Part shown: positions 504 through 9,137 of the stretch, piece after piece
How the letters are laid out: each line of letters starts with the position of its first letter
Numbering within the stretch: position 1 is the stretch's first letter
From: a virus
IMG/VR virus record: IMGVR_UViG_3300002447_000024
Span: 1-26,003 of that record
DNA length: 26,003 bases
Reading direction: 5' to 3' (one strand)
Position numbers and translations under genes: made by a program
The notes under the pieces: model-generated
The model's input: only the letters and a program-made list of their open reading frames with translations
Database searches by the model: none
Told to the model about the DNA's origin: nothing

Positions 504-617
504 TTATTTGTAGATAAATGGATCGCGTTTACGCAGTTCTTCTATGCGTTTTTTATATTCTCGATTTTCTTGCCAGTTTCTATAAGGGGTCAGTACCCAG
601 TAAATAAATCTTTTCAT
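504..617 (-). CDS. Very small conserved phage protein, 37 aa
   Basis: A 37-codon frame begins at an ATG at 617 with MKRFIYWVLTPYRNW and ends at a TAA at 504-506. Its start overlaps the TGA of the primase gene as ATGA (614-617), and the next gene starts two bases after its stop. It fills the gap between primase and the 61-residue gene exactly. The N-terminus is aromatic and hydrophobic, and the remainder is a charged helix (EYKKRIEELRKRD). The composition resembles small proteins found near replication genes in aquatic T4-type phages. Function is unknown. Membrane-surface association through the FIYWVL segment is possible, but that segment is too short for a clear transmembrane helix. Confidence 0.62.
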   Translation of the reverse strand: MKRFIYWVLTPYRNWQENREYKKRIEELRKRDPFIYK

Positions 618-1594
618 GTCATATCCTTAAACCATTTTTTTGCCCTAAGCTGAATCTTAAGACTGTTTGATTCTTTTGCTGATATAATTAGGTATAAGGT
701 AGCTAACCTGCCTATTTTTATCACAGCATCGTTTACGTCTTTAACGCCCTCTGGCCAATCAGGCATACTAACTGACCATCCAAATTCTAATGCTTGTTCA
801 ACTGTTACTGCGCCAGCAATGTCTTTGTCCGGAACTAGTATAATTTCTCTGCCTAATTGCTTCAACAGCCAGTGTTGACTGTCTTTAATTTCGGCACCTA
901 GTAACGCACACGCATCAATACTTATCGCATCAAACGGGCCTTCACAAACAATTACGAATTCTCTATCATCCGTTTGCTTGTCTAGATTAAACACATACCC
1001 TGGTTGCTGTTCACTTAGATATTTAGGCTTAGCATCGCCTACCGCACGGGCAGTATATCCTACAACAACATTGTCTTTATAAAACGGAATAATAACCCTG
1101 TTACTGAATCCTACCTTAGGAGTCCAATAAAACGGATAGTCATCTAAGTATAAATTTCTGTCGGAAAGATATTTTAGTATTGGCGCAAGTTTGCCAATTA
1201 ACGCCGATGACTTATTTGTCCATTCGGTTATTGGTTCGCTGTCTATTGGTAATGCTCTAGCTTCAAACTTAGGTATAATACTTTGTATTTGAGTAGTTGA
1301 ATTATCGTTGAGTCTAAGTGCTTCAAGTCGCAATTGACTAATCATATCGTCACTCATATTGAGTAAGCGCATGAACTTGCTCATCTTTTGGCTAATCGTT
1401 CTGCCAGGTTGCCAGCTACACTTAAATTGGCAATTAAAGCAATGGTAACTTACTGCATCTCCGGCATTAACAATAAAGCCACCACGTTGGCGTTTGTCGT
1501 CACAACAAGGGGCATTGAAACCAATCCAACCGCTTGGAGTGTGTTTTCGTTTCGAAGGTAAGTGTGCTTGAAGTGTGTCGGCTATGAGACTCAT
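614..1594 (-). CDS. DNA primase with zinc-binding and Toprim domains (T4 gp61-type role)
   Basis: This 326-residue protein would make RNA primers for lagging-strand synthesis together with the replicative helicase (gp41-type, not in this window). The N-terminus has a CHC2-like zinc-binding pattern: Cys30/Cys31, then His51, Cys52, Cys55 and Cys59 (SYHCFNCQFKC). The C-terminal half has a Toprim domain: VCEGPFDAISI with the catalytic Glu at 218, and ILVPDKDIAG with the Asp-x-Asp at 256/258. The middle segment (about 150-205: VGFSNRVIIPFY, VVGYTARAVG, PKYL) matches the RNA-polymerase core of DnaG-type primases. Its start at 1594 has no Shine-Dalgarno sequence, and a TATAAT box lies six bases upstream, so the transcript may be leaderless. 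The gene overlaps the following 37-aa gene by ATGA. The role is firm. Equivalence to T4 gp61 is by domain content. Confidence 0.88.
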   Translation of the reverse strand: MSLIADTLQAHLPSKRKHTPSGWIGFNAPCCDDKRQRGGFIVNAGDAVSYHCFNCQFKCSWQPGRTISQKMSKFMRLLNMSDDMISQLRLEALRLNDNSTTQIQSIIPKFEARALPIDSEPITEWTNKSSALIGKLAPILKYLSDRNLYLDDYPFYWTPKVGFSNRVIIPFYKDNVVVGYTARAVGDAKPKYLSEQQPGYVFNLDKQTDDREFVIVCEGPFDAISIDACALLGAEIKDSQHWLLKQLGREIILVPDKDIAGAVTVEQALEFGWSVSMPDWPEGVKDVNDAVIKIGRLATLYLIISAKESNSLKIQLRAKKWFKDMT

Positions 1595-2713: not shown

Positions 2714-2721
2714 TATTTATG
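2714..2721 (-). promoter_or_regulatory. Late-promoter-like box for the 361-aa gene
   Basis: The minus strand reads CATAAATA (7 of 8 to TATAAATA), ending 20 bases before the ATG at 2693, with AAAGG in between. It overlaps the start codon of the plus-strand gene. The distance is the same as for two other late-like boxes in this window (15494-15501 and 20861-20868). Confidence 0.45.
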
Positions 2722-3093
2722 GCAAAACTAAGAGACAACATAGAACAAAACCTACCCTTTATTAGTGTCATTAACTACGGCACAGAAGAATACGTGGGCA
2801 TCATTATTAACCAAGACCAGTTTGTTACTAGTTTCTACGATCTTAATGCTATTAAAACTCCCGAAGAAAAAACACTTTTTTTAGAAATTGGCGAAGTTTG
2901 GTGGTGGGAATCAAATAGACAATTCCCTATTAACATTTTTTGTAGGGAACAGATTTATCCATTCCACTACGCTGTTAAGACATTTAACAGTAAAGATGTT
3001 AGAGTATTATTAGGCCCAGTTGTAAACTTAATGAATTTGACTCTTAAACGTGTTAAACGTAAATCAGTTCAGCTAGTTCGTAGAACTAGATAA
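2719..3093 (+). CDS. Conserved phage protein of unknown function, 124 aa; only plus-strand gene
   Basis: This is the only gene on the plus strand. The protein begins MAKLRDNIEQNLPFISVINY, has a Trp/Glu-rich centre (EIGEVWWWESNRQFPINIF), then KTFNSKDVRVLLGP, and ends in a strongly basic tail (KRVKRKSVQLVRRTR). It looks like a conserved small protein of aquatic T4-type phages, and no function is known to me. The basic tail suggests contact with nucleic acid. A perfect late-promoter octamer lies upstream at 2668-2675, and AGGA at 2699-2702 is rather far for a ribosome site. The gene converges with the SGNH-hydrolase-like gene and overlaps its 3' end by 21 bases. Composition, good codon structure and the promoter argue that it is real, not a shadow, since nothing is coded opposite it over most of its length. 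Confidence 0.72.
   Translation: MAKLRDNIEQNLPFISVINYGTEEYVGIIINQDQFVTSFYDLNAIKTPEEKTLFLEIGEVWWWESNRQFPINIFCREQIYPFHYAVKTFNSKDVRVLLGPVVNLMNLTLKRVKRKSVQLVRRTR
3073..3089. repeat. Perfect palindrome at the convergent stop codons
   Basis: CTAGTTC-GTA-GAACTAG is a 7-bp perfect inverted repeat with a 3-base loop. It starts with the stop codon (TAG on the minus strand, 3073-3075) of the SGNH-like gene and ends two bases before the TAA (3091-3093) of the plus-strand gene. No U-tract follows on either strand, so it is not a classic intrinsic terminator. It could protect or process both 3' ends. Confidence 0.5.
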
Positions 3094-3807
3094 CGCCGCA
3101 TCAAACGCTTCCTTAGTTTTAAAGCTAGGAGTCAAGGACGGATTCCAATCTATAAATTCGCCGCGCAATCGGCCTTTGACATGTGCTAACATCCAGTTAT
3201 TAGTATCTGGGGTAAAGTGATTTGCTCGAGGATCGAACCATTTTTCCTTACCTCTATCTGTAAACCATTCATGAGTTTCTTGAACATCAAGATCCGTGAG
3301 ACACCAATTATATTCTGTATCGATGCCGCAATCCGGAAATGCTGGTATGATAATCGCATCTGGTCGAAGATGCCTTATATAATGGATCGATGCCATATGT
3401 GCATCTTTTAAATTTTGTTCTAATGGGTATGAAATATAAACCATATAGTCCAGTATCTTTTTAGCAAGATTATCTTCAACATCGTAGTTTTTTATAAAAT
3501 ATTCAATATTGCTTATATTAGGAAAATGATTTAACATTTCTAATTCGCCTGTTTCTTTATTTGTAGCGTTAACAGGGATTGATACCCTGTGTAAACTTGT
3601 TACTATAAAAACAACTTGTTTATATTTGTGATGATGCTCTAAAAATTGTCTAAAATTATAAGGGTTACTTGACCCTGCGCCAGCATGAACGCCGCAGTCA
3701 CTGCCGTACTCTTGCCAAAGTTTATAGGTCCACCCAGTAGCATACGTTGGGGTCTTGGTGTCGTGCAGCTCGGCATAACTATCACCAAAAATTCCTAATT
3801 GTTTCAT
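3073..3807 (-). CDS. SGNH/GDSL-hydrolase-like protein, 244 aa
   Basis: The N-terminus MKQLGIFGDSYAEL carries the block I signature of SGNH hydrolases, a strand followed by Gly-Asp-Ser with the presumed nucleophile Ser10. GVHAGAGSSN (39-48) fits block II, and VVFIVTSLHR (65-74) is the next strand. Near the C-terminus FDPRANHFTPDTNNWMLAHV has Asp192 and His197 in the place of the Asp/His pair of block V, although the spacing is wider than the usual Asp-x-x-His. The family hydrolyses esters, often removing acetyl groups from polysaccharides or lipids. The phage substrate is unknown. The ATG overlaps the TGA of the DnaE-like gene by four bases, so they are co-translated. Its last 21 bases overlap the opposing plus-strand gene. 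Confidence 0.65.
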   Translation of the reverse strand: MKQLGIFGDSYAELHDTKTPTYATGWTYKLWQEYGSDCGVHAGAGSSNPYNFRQFLEHHHKYKQVVFIVTSLHRVSIPVNATNKETGELEMLNHFPNISNIEYFIKNYDVEDNLAKKILDYMVYISYPLEQNLKDAHMASIHYIRHLRPDAIIIPAFPDCGIDTEYNWCLTDLDVQETHEWFTDRGKEKWFDPRANHFTPDTNNWMLAHVKGRLRGEFIDWNPSLTPSFKTKEAFDAALSSSTN

Positions 3808-4370
3808 GTTAGTTGCTCACAAATTAGATTCATCTGTATTACAATAACGTGAGCGTAGGCAATGGCATGCGCCTTCTTAAAATAGTATTCATCGTTCTCT
3901 GGTTTCGTCCAGATCTCTGTCATCACCGTATTCCAATCTTTCCCAATCAGATAACGTTTCGCAGGCCTGATCATTGCTAGTATTGCTGCCAACTTCTCTA
4001 TAGTGTTTGGTGCCATCTGTCTTAGAATAGAACCATGCCCATTCACGTGGAACAAATTGTTCACGAAGTCGTCTTCCAAGAGTAAATCCCATAGTGGTTC
4101 AGTCCTCATTAATTTTAGTAAATGCTGTCTGTCTTTAACGCCGTCATATACGTTTACGTTAAGGAAGTCTATCTTAAAATATCCACGATCTTCTGCTTCT
4201 TTATAATCTATAGTACTTAGTCCTGTAATAGGATTGTACGGCACACTAGTACAATATACGCCAGTATTGTGCTTTTTAAAAGTGCCATTGTCGTCAATAG
4301 CCGCAGTGACGTGTTTAAATACCTCTAGAGCTTTTGTGCGATCAGCAAAATCAATGTCAATATCTGGCAT
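3804..4370 (-). CDS. Miniature DnaE-like (C-family DNA polymerase III alpha) core protein, 188 aa
   Basis: The protein starts MPDIDIDFADR, the palm motif (PDxDxDF) that carries two of the three catalytic aspartates in bacterial Pol III alpha. GYFKIDFLNV (63-72, Asp68) matches the third-aspartate motif (LVKFDFLGL in E. coli). LFHVNG (106-111), then LAAILAMIRPAKRY (127-140), match the 'vFQlES' and 'ialvALfRPGp' segments. YYFKKAHAIAYAHV (162-175) matches 'YGFNKSHSAAYALV'. Order is preserved, but the PHP domain, most of the fingers and all C-terminal domains are absent: 188 residues against about 1,160. It follows the zinc-finger gene with TAATG and overlaps the SGNH gene by ATGA. The motifs are seen directly and common ancestry is inferred. 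Polymerase activity is unproven, and a structural or regulatory role at the replisome is equally possible. Confidence 0.62.
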   Translation of the reverse strand: MPDIDIDFADRTKALEVFKHVTAAIDDNGTFKKHNTGVYCTSVPYNPITGLSTIDYKEAEDRGYFKIDFLNVNVYDGVKDRQHLLKLMRTEPLWDLLLEDDFVNNLFHVNGHGSILRQMAPNTIEKLAAILAMIRPAKRYLIGKDWNTVMTEIWTKPENDEYYFKKAHAIAYAHVIVIQMNLICEQLT

Positions 4371-5068
4371 TATATATTTGACTCCTTAACTACCTGTTTA
4401 ACAAGATCTGTATCACTTGCTAGTCTTTTAAATTTACTTAACCAGAACGGTACATCCATTATAACATTAATAGCAGACAACTGTTCGTCATTAAATTTCT
4501 TTAACATTGCCTTGCCTGAACTAGAATTTAATACTAACCACGGACTAATCTTTCCATCTTTAATATCATAACACGCACGACTTAAACTGACATAATGAAA
4601 ATAATGATTCCAAACAGCATTGTTTGATTCACCCCATGCCATCATATGACTAATACTACGTTCTAAGGCAGTTTCAACAGTTTCTTTTTTAATAAGATCA
4701 ATAACGTATTGATCGTATAATTCGTCTCTACACCAGTGATCCAATTTTACATTACTAGTGACCACATAGTCCATGAATCTTTCAGGATACAGCGGATTAA
4801 CATTGCTAACAAAACTTCCAAATTTTACAAATGCGTTGTAGTAGGGACTTCTCGCAAACTCGTCGTATGTTTTATCTTGTTTACTGTTTTGTGTTTTTCT
4901 ATAAAATCTATTATACGTGTCATACCCTAGGACTACGTGTTTTTCAGTACGTGCTAGTGCTCTACGTTTTTGCTCACATACATGAACAGCCAATGTCTTT
5001 TCTCTAGTAAAGCCACTGCTACAGTATTGACAAATGTAAGATTTTGTATTTTCAACCGTCGTCATCAT
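4370..5068 (-). CDS. Zinc-finger protein, conserved in T4-type phages, 232 aa
   Basis: The N-terminus has a single finger of the pattern Cys-x2-Cys-x12-His-x-Cys (YICQYCSSGFTREKTLAVHVC, residues about 11-31), close to a C2H2 finger, followed by basic residues (EQKRRALAR). The remainder is mostly helical with many aromatic residues and no known catalytic motif (for example YDEFARSPYYNAFVKFG and LERSISHMMAWGESNN). The start overlaps the TGA of the gp62-like gene (ATGATGA). A second ATG three bases inside is also possible. The stop is joined to the next ATG as TAATG. Its place between a clamp-loader subunit and a DnaE-like protein suggests a replication or late-transcription role, perhaps DNA or RNA binding. 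The function is not known. Confidence 0.65.
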   Translation of the reverse strand: MMTTVENTKSYICQYCSSGFTREKTLAVHVCEQKRRALARTEKHVVLGYDTYNRFYRKTQNSKQDKTYDEFARSPYYNAFVKFGSFVSNVNPLYPERFMDYVVTSNVKLDHWCRDELYDQYVIDLIKKETVETALERSISHMMAWGESNNAVWNHYFHYVSLSRACYDIKDGKISPWLVLNSSSGKAMLKKFNDEQLSAINVIMDVPFWLSKFKRLASDTDLVKQVVKESNI

Positions 5069-5544
5069 TTTAATTTTTTTGCGATAGTTGCGTCATCCAT
5101 GCCGTATTTCTTAGCAAGCTCTTTTACTTCTTTATCAGTTGACATCTCTGCCATAAGTTCAAGTTCATCCATTTTACGATTAGGATATAACTCTGTTAAA
5201 AACTTTAATCTTTTGCTTCCAGTACCTGTTTTCTTTTTGTTACCCAGCCATTGGTGAAAGAATACAGTGCTACCATTATAGCTACACATACACAACAACA
5301 TCCACAACAGCTTAGGATGTTTTTGTAAGCTATTCCAATGTTTGTTGAAATATTCATTAACTGTTAATACAAAGTGCTCTTGTACTTCACGTTTAGGACT
5401 CTGTACGTTGCTAATATATCGATTGAGAATAAAGAACTCTTGTTTAAGAGACTTTTGTTGATCGGCATCCATGGCATCCCATAACTCGCGGACATTCTGA
5501 TCAACTGCCGCCAACTTTTCTTTTAGTTCAATCTTTTCGCTCAT
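5065..5544 (-). CDS. 62: Clamp-loader small subunit, gp62-like
   Basis: This 159-residue helical protein resembles the short gp62-type clamp-loader subunits of aquatic T4-type phages. It has an N-terminal LKEKLAAVDQNVRELWD, a middle EYFNKHWNSLQKHPKLLWMLL, and a C-terminal LYPNRKMDELELMAEMST ending in a short charged helix. With gp44 (not in this window) such a subunit loads the sliding clamp gp45, which serves both replication and late transcription. T4 gp62 is slightly longer (187 aa). The start overlaps the preceding stop by ATGA and its own stop overlaps the zinc-finger gene by ATGA. No motif in this family is diagnostic, so the call rests on overall pattern and neighbours. The absence of gp44 next to it differs from T4. 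Confidence 0.55.
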   Translation of the reverse strand: MSEKIELKEKLAAVDQNVRELWDAMDADQQKSLKQEFFILNRYISNVQSPKREVQEHFVLTVNEYFNKHWNSLQKHPKLLWMLLCMCSYNGSTVFFHQWLGNKKKTGTGSKRLKFLTELYPNRKMDELELMAEMSTDKEVKELAKKYGMDDATIAKKLK

Positions 5545-5810
5545 ACTTTATCCTTAGATAGTTTGTATATCATTATAACACGATCAATGGCCTTTTGTAA
5601 AGTCATATTGGTACGTGCTTCACGCCGAATTTCTCCCCAAAGTTTGTTATCCATTATATGATCGCGTAACGGCCTGCCATCACTTGTTCTTGGATCGTAT
5701 TCCCAACCCATTTCAATCCTTGTACTCGGATCAGCGCCGCTTTCTCGAGCGTAAACAGTGCCCTTGTCACGCTCGTAGATATAAGTAGCACCAGGTTTAA
5801 GATTGCCCAT
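5541..5810 (-). CDS. Small conserved phage protein, 89 aa, unknown function
   Basis: This is a compact 89-residue protein with an N-terminal beta-like part (GATYIYERDKGTVYARESG) followed by a helical part (LWGEIRREARTNMTLQKAIDRV). No signal peptide, membrane segment or enzyme motif is visible. The start (SD GGAAA upstream) lies within the last 14 bases of the oxygenase-like gene, and the stop overlaps the gp62-like start by ATGA. Both overlaps argue for a real gene in one operon. Its place next to the clamp-loader subunit hints at replication, but nothing more specific can be said. Confidence 0.62.
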   Translation of the reverse strand: MGNLKPGATYIYERDKGTVYARESGADPSTRIEMGWEYDPRTSDGRPLRDHIMDNKLWGEIRREARTNMTLQKAIDRVIMIYKLSKDKV

Positions 5811-6453
5811 TCAGTATTTCCTTAACTACCTCTTCCTTTGGCAGCAACCTGGCATCAAATGATAGTACTGTTCGATAGCCGGTGCCCTTCCATGGAAATA
5901 CAGTATGCGGTATGTGACTAGGGAACAGAACAACTGTGCCTGGCTCTGGTGTATATTTCCATGTGTCTGTCATAATAAACTTAGTAACATCTCGAGTTTG
6001 AGATAATCTAAATAATACCTGACCGTCAGATGATGGACTACCTTCTTCTAATTGAGGAGCACTTATATAGATGTTACCGCTAATATGTCCGCCTGGATGG
6101 CTGTGCATTTCTTGATAATTGCCTTGAGTTTGACGAATAGTCCAAACACTAGTAATTACCGGTTTACATAATTTTAAATCATCAACACCGCTTTGAGATG
6201 TTATTATTTCCATGTATCCTAGGCAAATTGATTCTAACCAAGTAGTTAACCAATTAACATCTACATCAAGTTTATTAGGAAATACCTGTATTTGTTGACC
6301 ACCTCGAATATTAGACAATGGGTTATGACTATCATCTAATTCTTTATGACTATGTAAATTTTCAGTTAACGAATAAATTTTACTAAACTCTACAGGCGGA
6401 ACAGTGTCAATGGCTAAAATGACTGGTTGAAAGTACGCAATTTTTAATGTCAT
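5797..6453 (-). CDS. 2OG-Fe(II) oxygenase-like protein, 218 aa
   Basis: The C-terminal half has the layout of phage 2-oxoglutarate/Fe(II) oxygenases (TIGR02466-like). MHSHPGGHISGNIYIS gives the first metal-ligand region (His117/His119) on a strand. VLFRLSQTRDVT follows, then PGTVVLFPSHIPHTVFPW with the distal His183, then GYRTVLSFDARL with Arg194 for the 2OG carboxylate. The N-terminal part (IAYFQPVILAIDTVP) matches the usual opening of this family. These enzymes hydroxylate proteins, nucleic acids or small molecules, and the target here is unknown. The ribosome site AAAGGAAA lies about eight bases before the ATG. The gene sits inside the long operon after uvsW, and its end overlaps the 89-aa gene. 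Which of the clustered histidines bind iron cannot be decided by eye. Confidence 0.7.
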   Translation of the reverse strand: MTLKIAYFQPVILAIDTVPPVEFSKIYSLTENLHSHKELDDSHNPLSNIRGGQQIQVFPNKLDVDVNWLTTWLESICLGYMEIITSQSGVDDLKLCKPVITSVWTIRQTQGNYQEMHSHPGGHISGNIYISAPQLEEGSPSSDGQVLFRLSQTRDVTKFIMTDTWKYTPEPGTVVLFPSHIPHTVFPWKGTGYRTVLSFDARLLPKEEVVKEILNGQS

Positions 6454-7673: not shown

Positions 7674-9137
7674 TTATTTCCAATCCGTTTTTTCAATTGT
7701 AAACGGATACTTAGCTTCTTTATAAAATTTCTTTCTTTCTGTTAAATGCCGTTTAGCATATTTACAAGTACTAGTTATATCCCAGATTTGTACAAAGTCT
7801 TTGTCCTCTGCTTTTCTTATGCCGCGGCCAATGCTCTGGATAACTCGAGTAAACGACTTGCCAGACTCCAGCAGTACCAAGTTAAAGATGCGAGGAATAT
7901 TAATACCAACAGCCGCGACACCATAGGTTGCGACGATAATTTTATTAGTACTTGTTTTAATTTCATCATACTCCTCTTTCCTATCCTTAGTTTTAACTTC
8001 GCCGGACACAAAAACAGCATCTTCTATCTCATTAATTAAAAATTTACCTGAATCAATTCTATTGACCAGAACTAATGTATTGCCTGTTTGTGATATTTTT
8101 TTGACTAACTTACTGATATAAATCATCCTGTCATCGTCTGTAACAAGATATTTTAATTCATCTGAATAACTGCTAAACTCTGGTAGATCTATTAGTTGTA
8201 CAACATTAACGTGACACGTGGATAATACTCCCATGCCTTGTAATTCGTGTGCTTTAATTCCACCTACTACTGGACCAAGGCTGGCAAATATCTGCTCGCT
8301 TTCAAATTTTTCTTTAGGAACAGTACCAGTTAATCCCCAACGAATTGGAGCATTTGCTAGATTTTGTGTTAGTAAGTTCTTTAATACTTCTGCTTTGGCC
8401 ATGTGTACTTCGTCAACAATAACACACTTAACTCCGTCAAGGAATTCGGCAAGTGTTAAAATATCGTGTTCGTGATTTTTACTTTTCTTATCTAAAATGT
8501 TAAGACTTTGCCATGTACATATAGTGTGTGTCTTACCTAAATCTTTGCGATCACCGTAATACACACCAACATCTAATCCCACTGCGATAAAGTCTTCTTC
8601 TGTTTGCTCTACAAGACTTTTATTTGGTACAATAGTGATTGTGCGTCCATACTTTTCAGCTAACTGACTTAGTGTAGCTGTAGTAATAGTCTTGCCAGCA
8701 CCGGTGGCAATTTCTTGTAATGATTGTGTATTTTCAAGGAATTTATTAACAGCATCAACTTGGTAGTCACGTAGCATAATAGGCTGTCCAGCTTGTTGGT
8801 GCCCTTTAGGCCAGACTTTACCTTGGTCGGCCCAGTATGTGTCAGTTACTGGATTGAATTCAATTTTGCTAGTTGTACGTAAGTCGTCAACTTCCTCAAT
8901 TCCAATGCCTAGCTTAGTTAAAATGGTTAAAATTTGTTCTAGCTGGCTGAGGTATCCATTACCGCCAAGCCCAAATAAACTTACCATTCCATCCCAACGT
9001 CCTAACTTAAAAGCAGGATGATATCGTGCGTAAGGAATTTCATACTTAAATGTATTGGCTAATTTTTTTCGTGCGTCGAGTGGCAAATTCTCAAATTTTA
9101 TGTTTACTTCGTCTTTAATTATTAATCTTACTGCCAT
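7674..9137 (-). CDS. uvsW: UvsW-type RNA-DNA and recombination helicase
   Basis: This is a superfamily 2 helicase of 487 residues, the expected size for T4 UvsW. The N-terminal domain has the typical RYHPAFKLGRWDGMVSLF (39-55). Motif I (Walker A) is ATGAGKT (144-150), motif II is VDEVH (241-245), motif III is LTGT (269-272), and motif VI is QSIGRGIRK (434-442). In T4, UvsW unwinds R-loops and branched recombination intermediates and switches origin-dependent to recombination-dependent replication. Its start overlaps the end of the upstream 395-aa gene by 10 bases. Here it is transcribed from the promoter at 10322-10349 and so is separated from uvsX/uvsY by a terminator, which would allow separate timing. 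Confidence 0.93.
   Translation of the reverse strand: MAVRLIIKDEVNIKFENLPLDARKKLANTFKYEIPYARYHPAFKLGRWDGMVSLFGLGGNGYLSQLEQILTILTKLGIGIEEVDDLRTTSKIEFNPVTDTYWADQGKVWPKGHQQAGQPIMLRDYQVDAVNKFLENTQSLQEIATGAGKTITTATLSQLAEKYGRTITIVPNKSLVEQTEEDFIAVGLDVGVYYGDRKDLGKTHTICTWQSLNILDKKSKNHEHDILTLAEFLDGVKCVIVDEVHMAKAEVLKNLLTQNLANAPIRWGLTGTVPKEKFESEQIFASLGPVVGGIKAHELQGMGVLSTCHVNVVQLIDLPEFSSYSDELKYLVTDDDRMIYISKLVKKISQTGNTLVLVNRIDSGKFLINEIEDAVFVSGEVKTKDRKEEYDEIKTSTNKIIVATYGVAAVGINIPRIFNLVLLESGKSFTRVIQSIGRGIRKAEDKDFVQIWDITSTCKYAKRHLTERKKFYKEAKYPFTIEKTDWK

Follow-up and report, generated by a model that had tools for sequence, protein, structure and literature searches.

Piece B, a 188-aa protein encoded on the minus strand of the window (the whole 26,003-nucleotide stretch of viral DNA analysed here, IMG/VR record IMGVR_UViG_3300002447_000024), is the C-terminal half of a two-gene minimal DNA polymerase III alpha subunit (Pol III alpha), and not a stand-alone or relict palm. 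The other half, which we call piece A, is encoded at a different locus in related phages. As a split enzyme of this kind was described by Iyer et al. (2021, Viruses 13:63, PMC7824862), B is a further member of a known enzyme type. According to the available text of that paper, group 2.2 jumbo phages carry a phage-specific minimal Pol III alpha with a palm of the Pol-beta nucleotidyltransferase type. The enzyme is split into two proteins from distant genes, a family B polymerase (PolB) is present, and the two halves likely reconstitute the enzyme, perhaps cooperating with PolB. The discovery of the split enzyme itself dates from 2021; beyond the available text, we report how individual residues are conserved, how the two predicted folds tile on solved structures, that a 141-kb phage is a carrier, and that the genes are linked to clamp-loader genes.

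The half encoded in the window

The initial annotation listed five DnaE-like segments without naming a strand. All five are present, in the DnaE order, in the minus-strand ORF: PDIDIDF (residues 2-8), KIDFLN (66-71), LFHVNG (106-111), LAAILAMIRPAKRY (127-140), and FKKAHAIAYAHV (164-175). Its Asp68 is indeed D68, whereas the residues it numbered Asp4, Asp6, and Asp8 are D3, D5, and D7. The ORF begins at the Asp motif and contains neither a PHP domain nor a complete palm in one chain. The ATG of B shares base 4370 with the stop codon of a zinc-finger gene, whose own start overlaps the end of a gp62-like gene by four bases (5065-5068), confirming the translational coupling that had been claimed.

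Judged by family matches, the motif order exceeds chance, because window B as a single protein matched two families labelled 'DNA polymerase', phrog_11778 (E 4.1e-70) and the 1190-position phrog_405 (E 1.6e-9). Against Pol III alpha of Mycobacterium tuberculosis (Mtb; 5lew), a profile built from 66 B homologues reached a whole-sequence E of 2e-4. This match comprised three blocks collinear with DnaE and a fourth, weak block that overlapped one of them, with no block significant alone; the next entry was an unrelated hydroxylase (E 0.066). A Pfam search with window B gave only a sub-threshold finger match (E 0.18).

The initial annotation held homologues possible in other aquatic T4-type phages, and T4-like phages do carry them. 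An IMG/VR scan returned at least 600 stretches, and 569 of those listed encode a relative of B; 80 loci were kept. By tblastn up to E 1, B matched 117 phage records, 61 of them with at least 80% query coverage, and the full-length matches included RaK2-like and PA5oct-like phages, Atu_ph07, SCTP-2, XacN1, and the 141-kb phage Slicko01. The weak tail consisted of Streptomyces phage DnaE (E 0.03-0.8) and chance-level matches to Erwinia phages. When the 26-kb window record was searched with B, the one match was B itself. Twelve of 111 candidate stretches in genome contigs also encode a B relative; all 12 (L280-L291) are titled MAG and assigned to bacteria or archaea. We considered a cellular origin of B and rejected it, as these are probably viral contigs that were binned with hosts.

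We then placed the residues of B on Escherichia coli DnaE. The A profile ends at residue 406 of the Mtb protein and at residue 392 of the E. coli protein, which gives an offset of 14; since MPDIDIDF starts at Mtb 413, D3, D5, and D7 of B correspond to E. coli D401, D403, and D405. From a reading of the motifs, D68 (KxDFL) corresponds to D555, and H168 (FKKxHAxxYA) to H760. In the available text of PMC3919608, D401, D403, and D555 are the catalytic Asp of E. coli DnaE, and D405 is specific to DnaE, PolC having Asn at that place. H760 is the presumed steric (ribonucleotide) gate (available text of PMC8485763). B carries all three catalytic Asp at places collinear with bacterial DnaE/PolC and, like DnaE, keeps the D405 equivalent.

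These residues hardly vary. Among 169 unique aligned B rows, which reach down to 33% identity to the window and are not independent because some contigs occur twice, D3, D5, and D7 are kept in 167 (two gaps), and K66, D68, R135, P136, K138, H168, and Y172 in 168 (one gap). The dN/dS of B against close relatives was 0.06-0.15 in nine of 11 pairs, dS being saturated in the other two. Given that the active-site residues do not vary and that dN/dS is this low, relict status is unlikely.

The second half and the split point

We searched 16 related records with PF07733. Exactly one match, piece A, was obtained in each of 11 (nine named phages and two IMG/VR contigs >220 kb), and its locus differed from that of B. 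PolB was found in the same 11 records. The other five, linear contigs of 108-154 kb, yielded neither A nor PolB and for this reason may be fragments. In B identity, two A-less records (L011, 83%, 108 kb; L026, 78%, 148 kb) resemble the window more than do the two contigs with A (L016, 77%; L034, 75%). PolB was also detected in 17 of 17 IMG/VR contigs of 175-462 kb that had been chosen for A or B, in agreement with the B-family polymerase (gp43) assumed in the initial annotation. The PolB match was spread over two open frames in four records (W02, W03, W08, and G014; 578 + 322 aa in Slicko01), which suggests from the reading frames that gp43 is likewise split or interrupted there. No match to a PHP or HHH_6 domain was obtained in any of the 11 related records, and no separate fingers gene was found in them, the sole finger match (1/11) lying inside B of XacN1.

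Piece A is about 155-185 aa long and carries GxGRGSS, i.e. the palm segment that precedes B. It belonged to phrog_11127 in all four cases scanned, and A of L113 matched phrog_405 at E 6.7e-11. The motif GxGRGS is invariant in 131 of 131 unique A sequences. EFL(R/K/H), or a closely similar sequence, terminates the chain; at this point DnaE runs on into MPDxDxDF, and B starts. In the sequence profiles, A covers 320-392 of E. coli DnaE and 336-406 of the Mtb protein, and B begins at Mtb 413, leaving six residues between them on 5lew. Because the GRGSS segment that B lacks has its own gene in 11 of the 16 related records, neither the relict palm nor the self-sufficient tiny C-family core proposed in the initial annotation is supported for B; against the relict palm, there are also the invariant residues and purifying selection.

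A split intein was considered as the origin of the break. Of 131 unique A ORFs, 129 end 0-2 residues away from the end of the profile, and in nine named relatives the first Asp of B is preceded by no more than 15 residues (with starts as chosen in the analysis), so there is no space for intein halves. A fused or adjacent A+B was also rejected: no joint ORF and no shared locus occurred among 172 A and 182 B loci, within the fetched flanks of mostly 2-8 kb.

The predicted structures gave the same division. Both models were confident (pLDDT 93.7 for B, 94.2 for A). Superposed on E. coli DnaE (crystal structures 2hnh and 4jom), the A model spans 271-393 (Z 9.8 and 11.1), and the B model spans 401-780 and 400-780, respectively (Z 8.8 and 8.9). 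There was no overlap on Mtb 5lew (A 304-413, B 419-807) or PolC 3f2b (A 817-965, B 972-1295). On E. coli, the structural start of B (400/401) departs from the motif register by 1-2 residues, whereas on Mtb and Thermus aquaticus it agrees. For A, the structural lists barely cover the first ~60 residues. The best 14 entries for B (Z 9.3-6.0; next row 3.5) and the best 15 for A (Z 12.4-7.7; next row 2.4) are DNA polymerases, which we read as C-family. For these predicted models, the Z-scores are middling yet clear of the next rows. For B, rmsd was 3.7-4.9 Å and Foldseek TM 0.31-0.43, and Foldseek E 0.001 was reached by only two matches for B and none for A. Other E. coli chains gave B a Z of 6.8-8.1, where the tool warns that values <8 may reflect a common arrangement. 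The superposition on Pol III alpha and the profile matches bear out the DnaE-type ancestry proposed for B.

A and B also occur together. The listed phage records comprise 60 with B (of 117 matched) and 60 with A (of 104 matched), some phages occurring as two records; 58 records of the B list recur in the A list. The 59th is Slicko01, where A was found by the PF07733 search, leaving only PP728206 (109 kb). The 17 IMG/VR contigs, which are linear and may be fragments, comprised 13 with both pieces, two with A only, and two with B only. A and B lie on the same strand in all 22 records that carry both (13 contigs and nine named phages). They are 5-15 kb apart in eight of these, with A upstream in all eight, and 29-280 kb apart in the other 14, with A upstream in eight and B in six.

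Gene neighbourhood

The features around B are given in Table 1. A gp44 relative follows downstream of A, in the same orientation, at 66 of the 67 A loci that offer 2.3 kb of room. In L372-L374, three records in which A and B are close, the order is A, other genes, gp44, a phrog_11758-family gene, the zinc-finger gene, and B, so A and B flank the clamp-loader genes there. Agreement in strand and order is weak evidence in these phages, which have long co-directional blocks.

Table 1. Features of the window around piece B.
Feature	Position	Strand	Basis or occurrence
DNA primase with Toprim domain, phrog_47	614-1594	-	downstream of B in 68/68 loci with room
124-aa gene, phrog_11637	2719-3093	+	near B in 138/153 loci with room, never on the strand of B
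Piece B of the split minimal Pol III alpha (C-terminal half)	3804-4370	-	phrog_11778, motifs, model
PDIDIDF codons (residues 2-8), catalytic Asp motif; split from A immediately before	4347-4367	-	sequence, 5lew profiles
C2H2-type zinc-finger gene, phrog_11058	4370-5068	-	upstream of B in 168/176 loci with room
gp62-like clamp-loader small-subunit family, phrog_11758	5065-5544	-	upstream of B in 150/167 loci with room
SF2 helicase, UvsW type	7674-9137	-	ResIII, DEAD, Helicase_C; UvsW_N below cut-off

The gp44 of L373 matched phrog_168 at E 4.9e-62. The gp62-like label given earlier to the neighbour of the zinc-finger gene stands in part. The phrog_11758-family members of L372-L374 all matched phrog_225 ('clamp loader of DNA polymerase'; E 1.4e-6 to 1e-5), which we take to be gp62. 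The window protein itself matched phrog_11758 but did not reach phrog_225, and no gp62 match was obtained in Pfam or PDB sequences. As a sequence-based assignment, the label is plausible.

Several other genes were observed at these loci. GroES/gp31-like genes lie between A and gp44 in L372 (5320-5917), L115, L116, and L118. Those of L372 and L374 are assigned by reading the sequence, a profile search having confirmed one L372 gene, and in named phages the genes in this interval are annotated as chaperonin, GroES, or head morphogenesis. One of them has a relative in 112 of the 152 A loci that offer room. In L373, a 225-aa ORF (3500-4177) directly precedes gp44 between A and B and, judged by a motif, may be a GIY-YIG homing endonuclease. 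Mobile genes might have driven the A/B split.

In the window, a 244-aa gene on the minus strand (3073-3807) overlaps the stop codon of B by four bases. Relatives were present in only two of the 161 loci that offer room, so the gene may have been inserted recently between B and its opposite-strand neighbour. The protein had no Pfam match up to E 1; GDSY near its start may indicate an SGNH-type hydrolase. Another minus-strand ORF (5797-6453, 218 aa) contains HSHPGGHISG and HIPH segments, which we take to resemble a 2OG-Fe(II) oxygenase.

Probable function and relation to known enzymes

A and B probably form a small, two-polypeptide C-family DNA polymerase that carries out short synthesis beside gp43. 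Piece A would contribute the GRGSS helix, the expected binding site of the incoming triphosphate. B would be the metal- and template-binding half, with the three catalytic Asp, the conserved Lys/Arg, and a finger helix bearing the gate His. Assembled, the halves would join within the palm, at the end of the A chain and the start of the B chain, giving a catalytic DNA polymerase of ~355 aa without a PHP, thumb, or OB domain. Since it has no thumb, such an enzyme would probably be distributive, and the absence of thumb and PHP domain suggests short synthesis, most likely gap filling, repair, or lagging-strand ends. Within the replisome, the clamp-loader and primase module near both genes may bring A+B to primer ends; gene order makes the clamp loader and the zinc-finger protein candidate DNA- or clamp-binding partners.

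If active, A+B would come close to a minimal C-family polymerase, made of two small, co-expressible, and assayable proteins, and would reveal how small a part of Pol III alpha suffices for templated synthesis. More tentatively, A and B may be dedicated partners of the clamp loader, placing a split C-family polymerase inside a T4-type gp43/gp44/gp62 replisome with a mixed fork. A bacterial-type and a B-family polymerase would then share the fork of one virus, each with its own strand or step. The gene link to gp44/gp62 makes the cooperation with PolB suggested in 2021 testable.

The missing thumb and clamp-binding parts count against a DNA polymerase, since they leave its binding to DNA without an explanation. 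A+B could instead be another nucleotidyltransferase, acting in end-tailing, priming, or nucleotide or protein modification. The thumbless B, the lack of PHP and HHH_6 matches, the separate B-family replicase of related records, and a palm of the Pol-beta nucleotidyltransferase type (available text of PMC7824862) are all consistent with this. However, the invariant finger helix and gate His fit a templated choice of dNTP over rNTP (available text of PMC8485763), and the genes lie near primase, clamp-loader, and helicase genes; we consider such an activity unlikely. It is quite improbable that the pair is what remains, catalytically dead, of an acquired DnaE and serves as a structural or regulatory scaffold of the replisome: the extreme truncation and the split into two genes would suit it, but a scaffold needs neither the Asp of B nor the GRGSS of A, both of which are invariant, in B down to 33% identity. 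That B alone is the smallest C-family polymerase is hardly credible despite its confident model, as A accompanies it in 59 of the 60 listed phage records and, in the tiling, covers the palm segment that B lacks.

The probable polymerase formed by A and B agrees with the split enzyme of Iyer et al. in having the catalytic-Asp C-terminal half as its own gene. As for the other features of that enzyme, an N-terminal NTP-binding half encoded elsewhere and a family B polymerase in the same genome were each seen in 11 of the 16 related records, the latter also in the 17 contigs; in the 26-kb window record, A could not be seen from the ORF lists. Searches for further Pol III alpha domains in 11 related records gave no match outside B. 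Unlike the jumbo phages of that study, the window member comes from an uncultured phage, and the 141-kb Slicko01 is also a carrier. The clamp-loader linkage is absent from the available text of PMC7824862. Compared with bacterial DnaE, A+B keeps the palm and finger motifs in the same order. DnaE has 1160 aa in a single chain (5fku), A+B about 355 aa in two (188 and about 168), and the PHP and HHH_6 domains of DnaE had no match in the 11 related records. The phrog_405 profile is a single chain containing both halves, A at 358-429 and B at 580-678.

A literature search, with subscription journals mostly outside its coverage, found no experimental study or functional report on the split enzyme, nor does it appear in the available text of a 2026 survey of bacterial polymerases (PMC12926913). 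Atu_ph07 gp316 (PMC6102473), AP-J-162 gp197 and gp206 (PMC11242549), and Callisto ORF111 (PMC11079468), named Pol III proteins in the available text of these reports, are probably single pieces. RefSeq labels the RaK2 genes for A and B, ORF162 and ORF124, 'DNA polymerase'. A also matches near the C-terminal end of phrog_7513 and phrog_13169, families of 461 and 463 positions, and by this placement other phages may carry an independently split, longer N-terminal half of DnaE.
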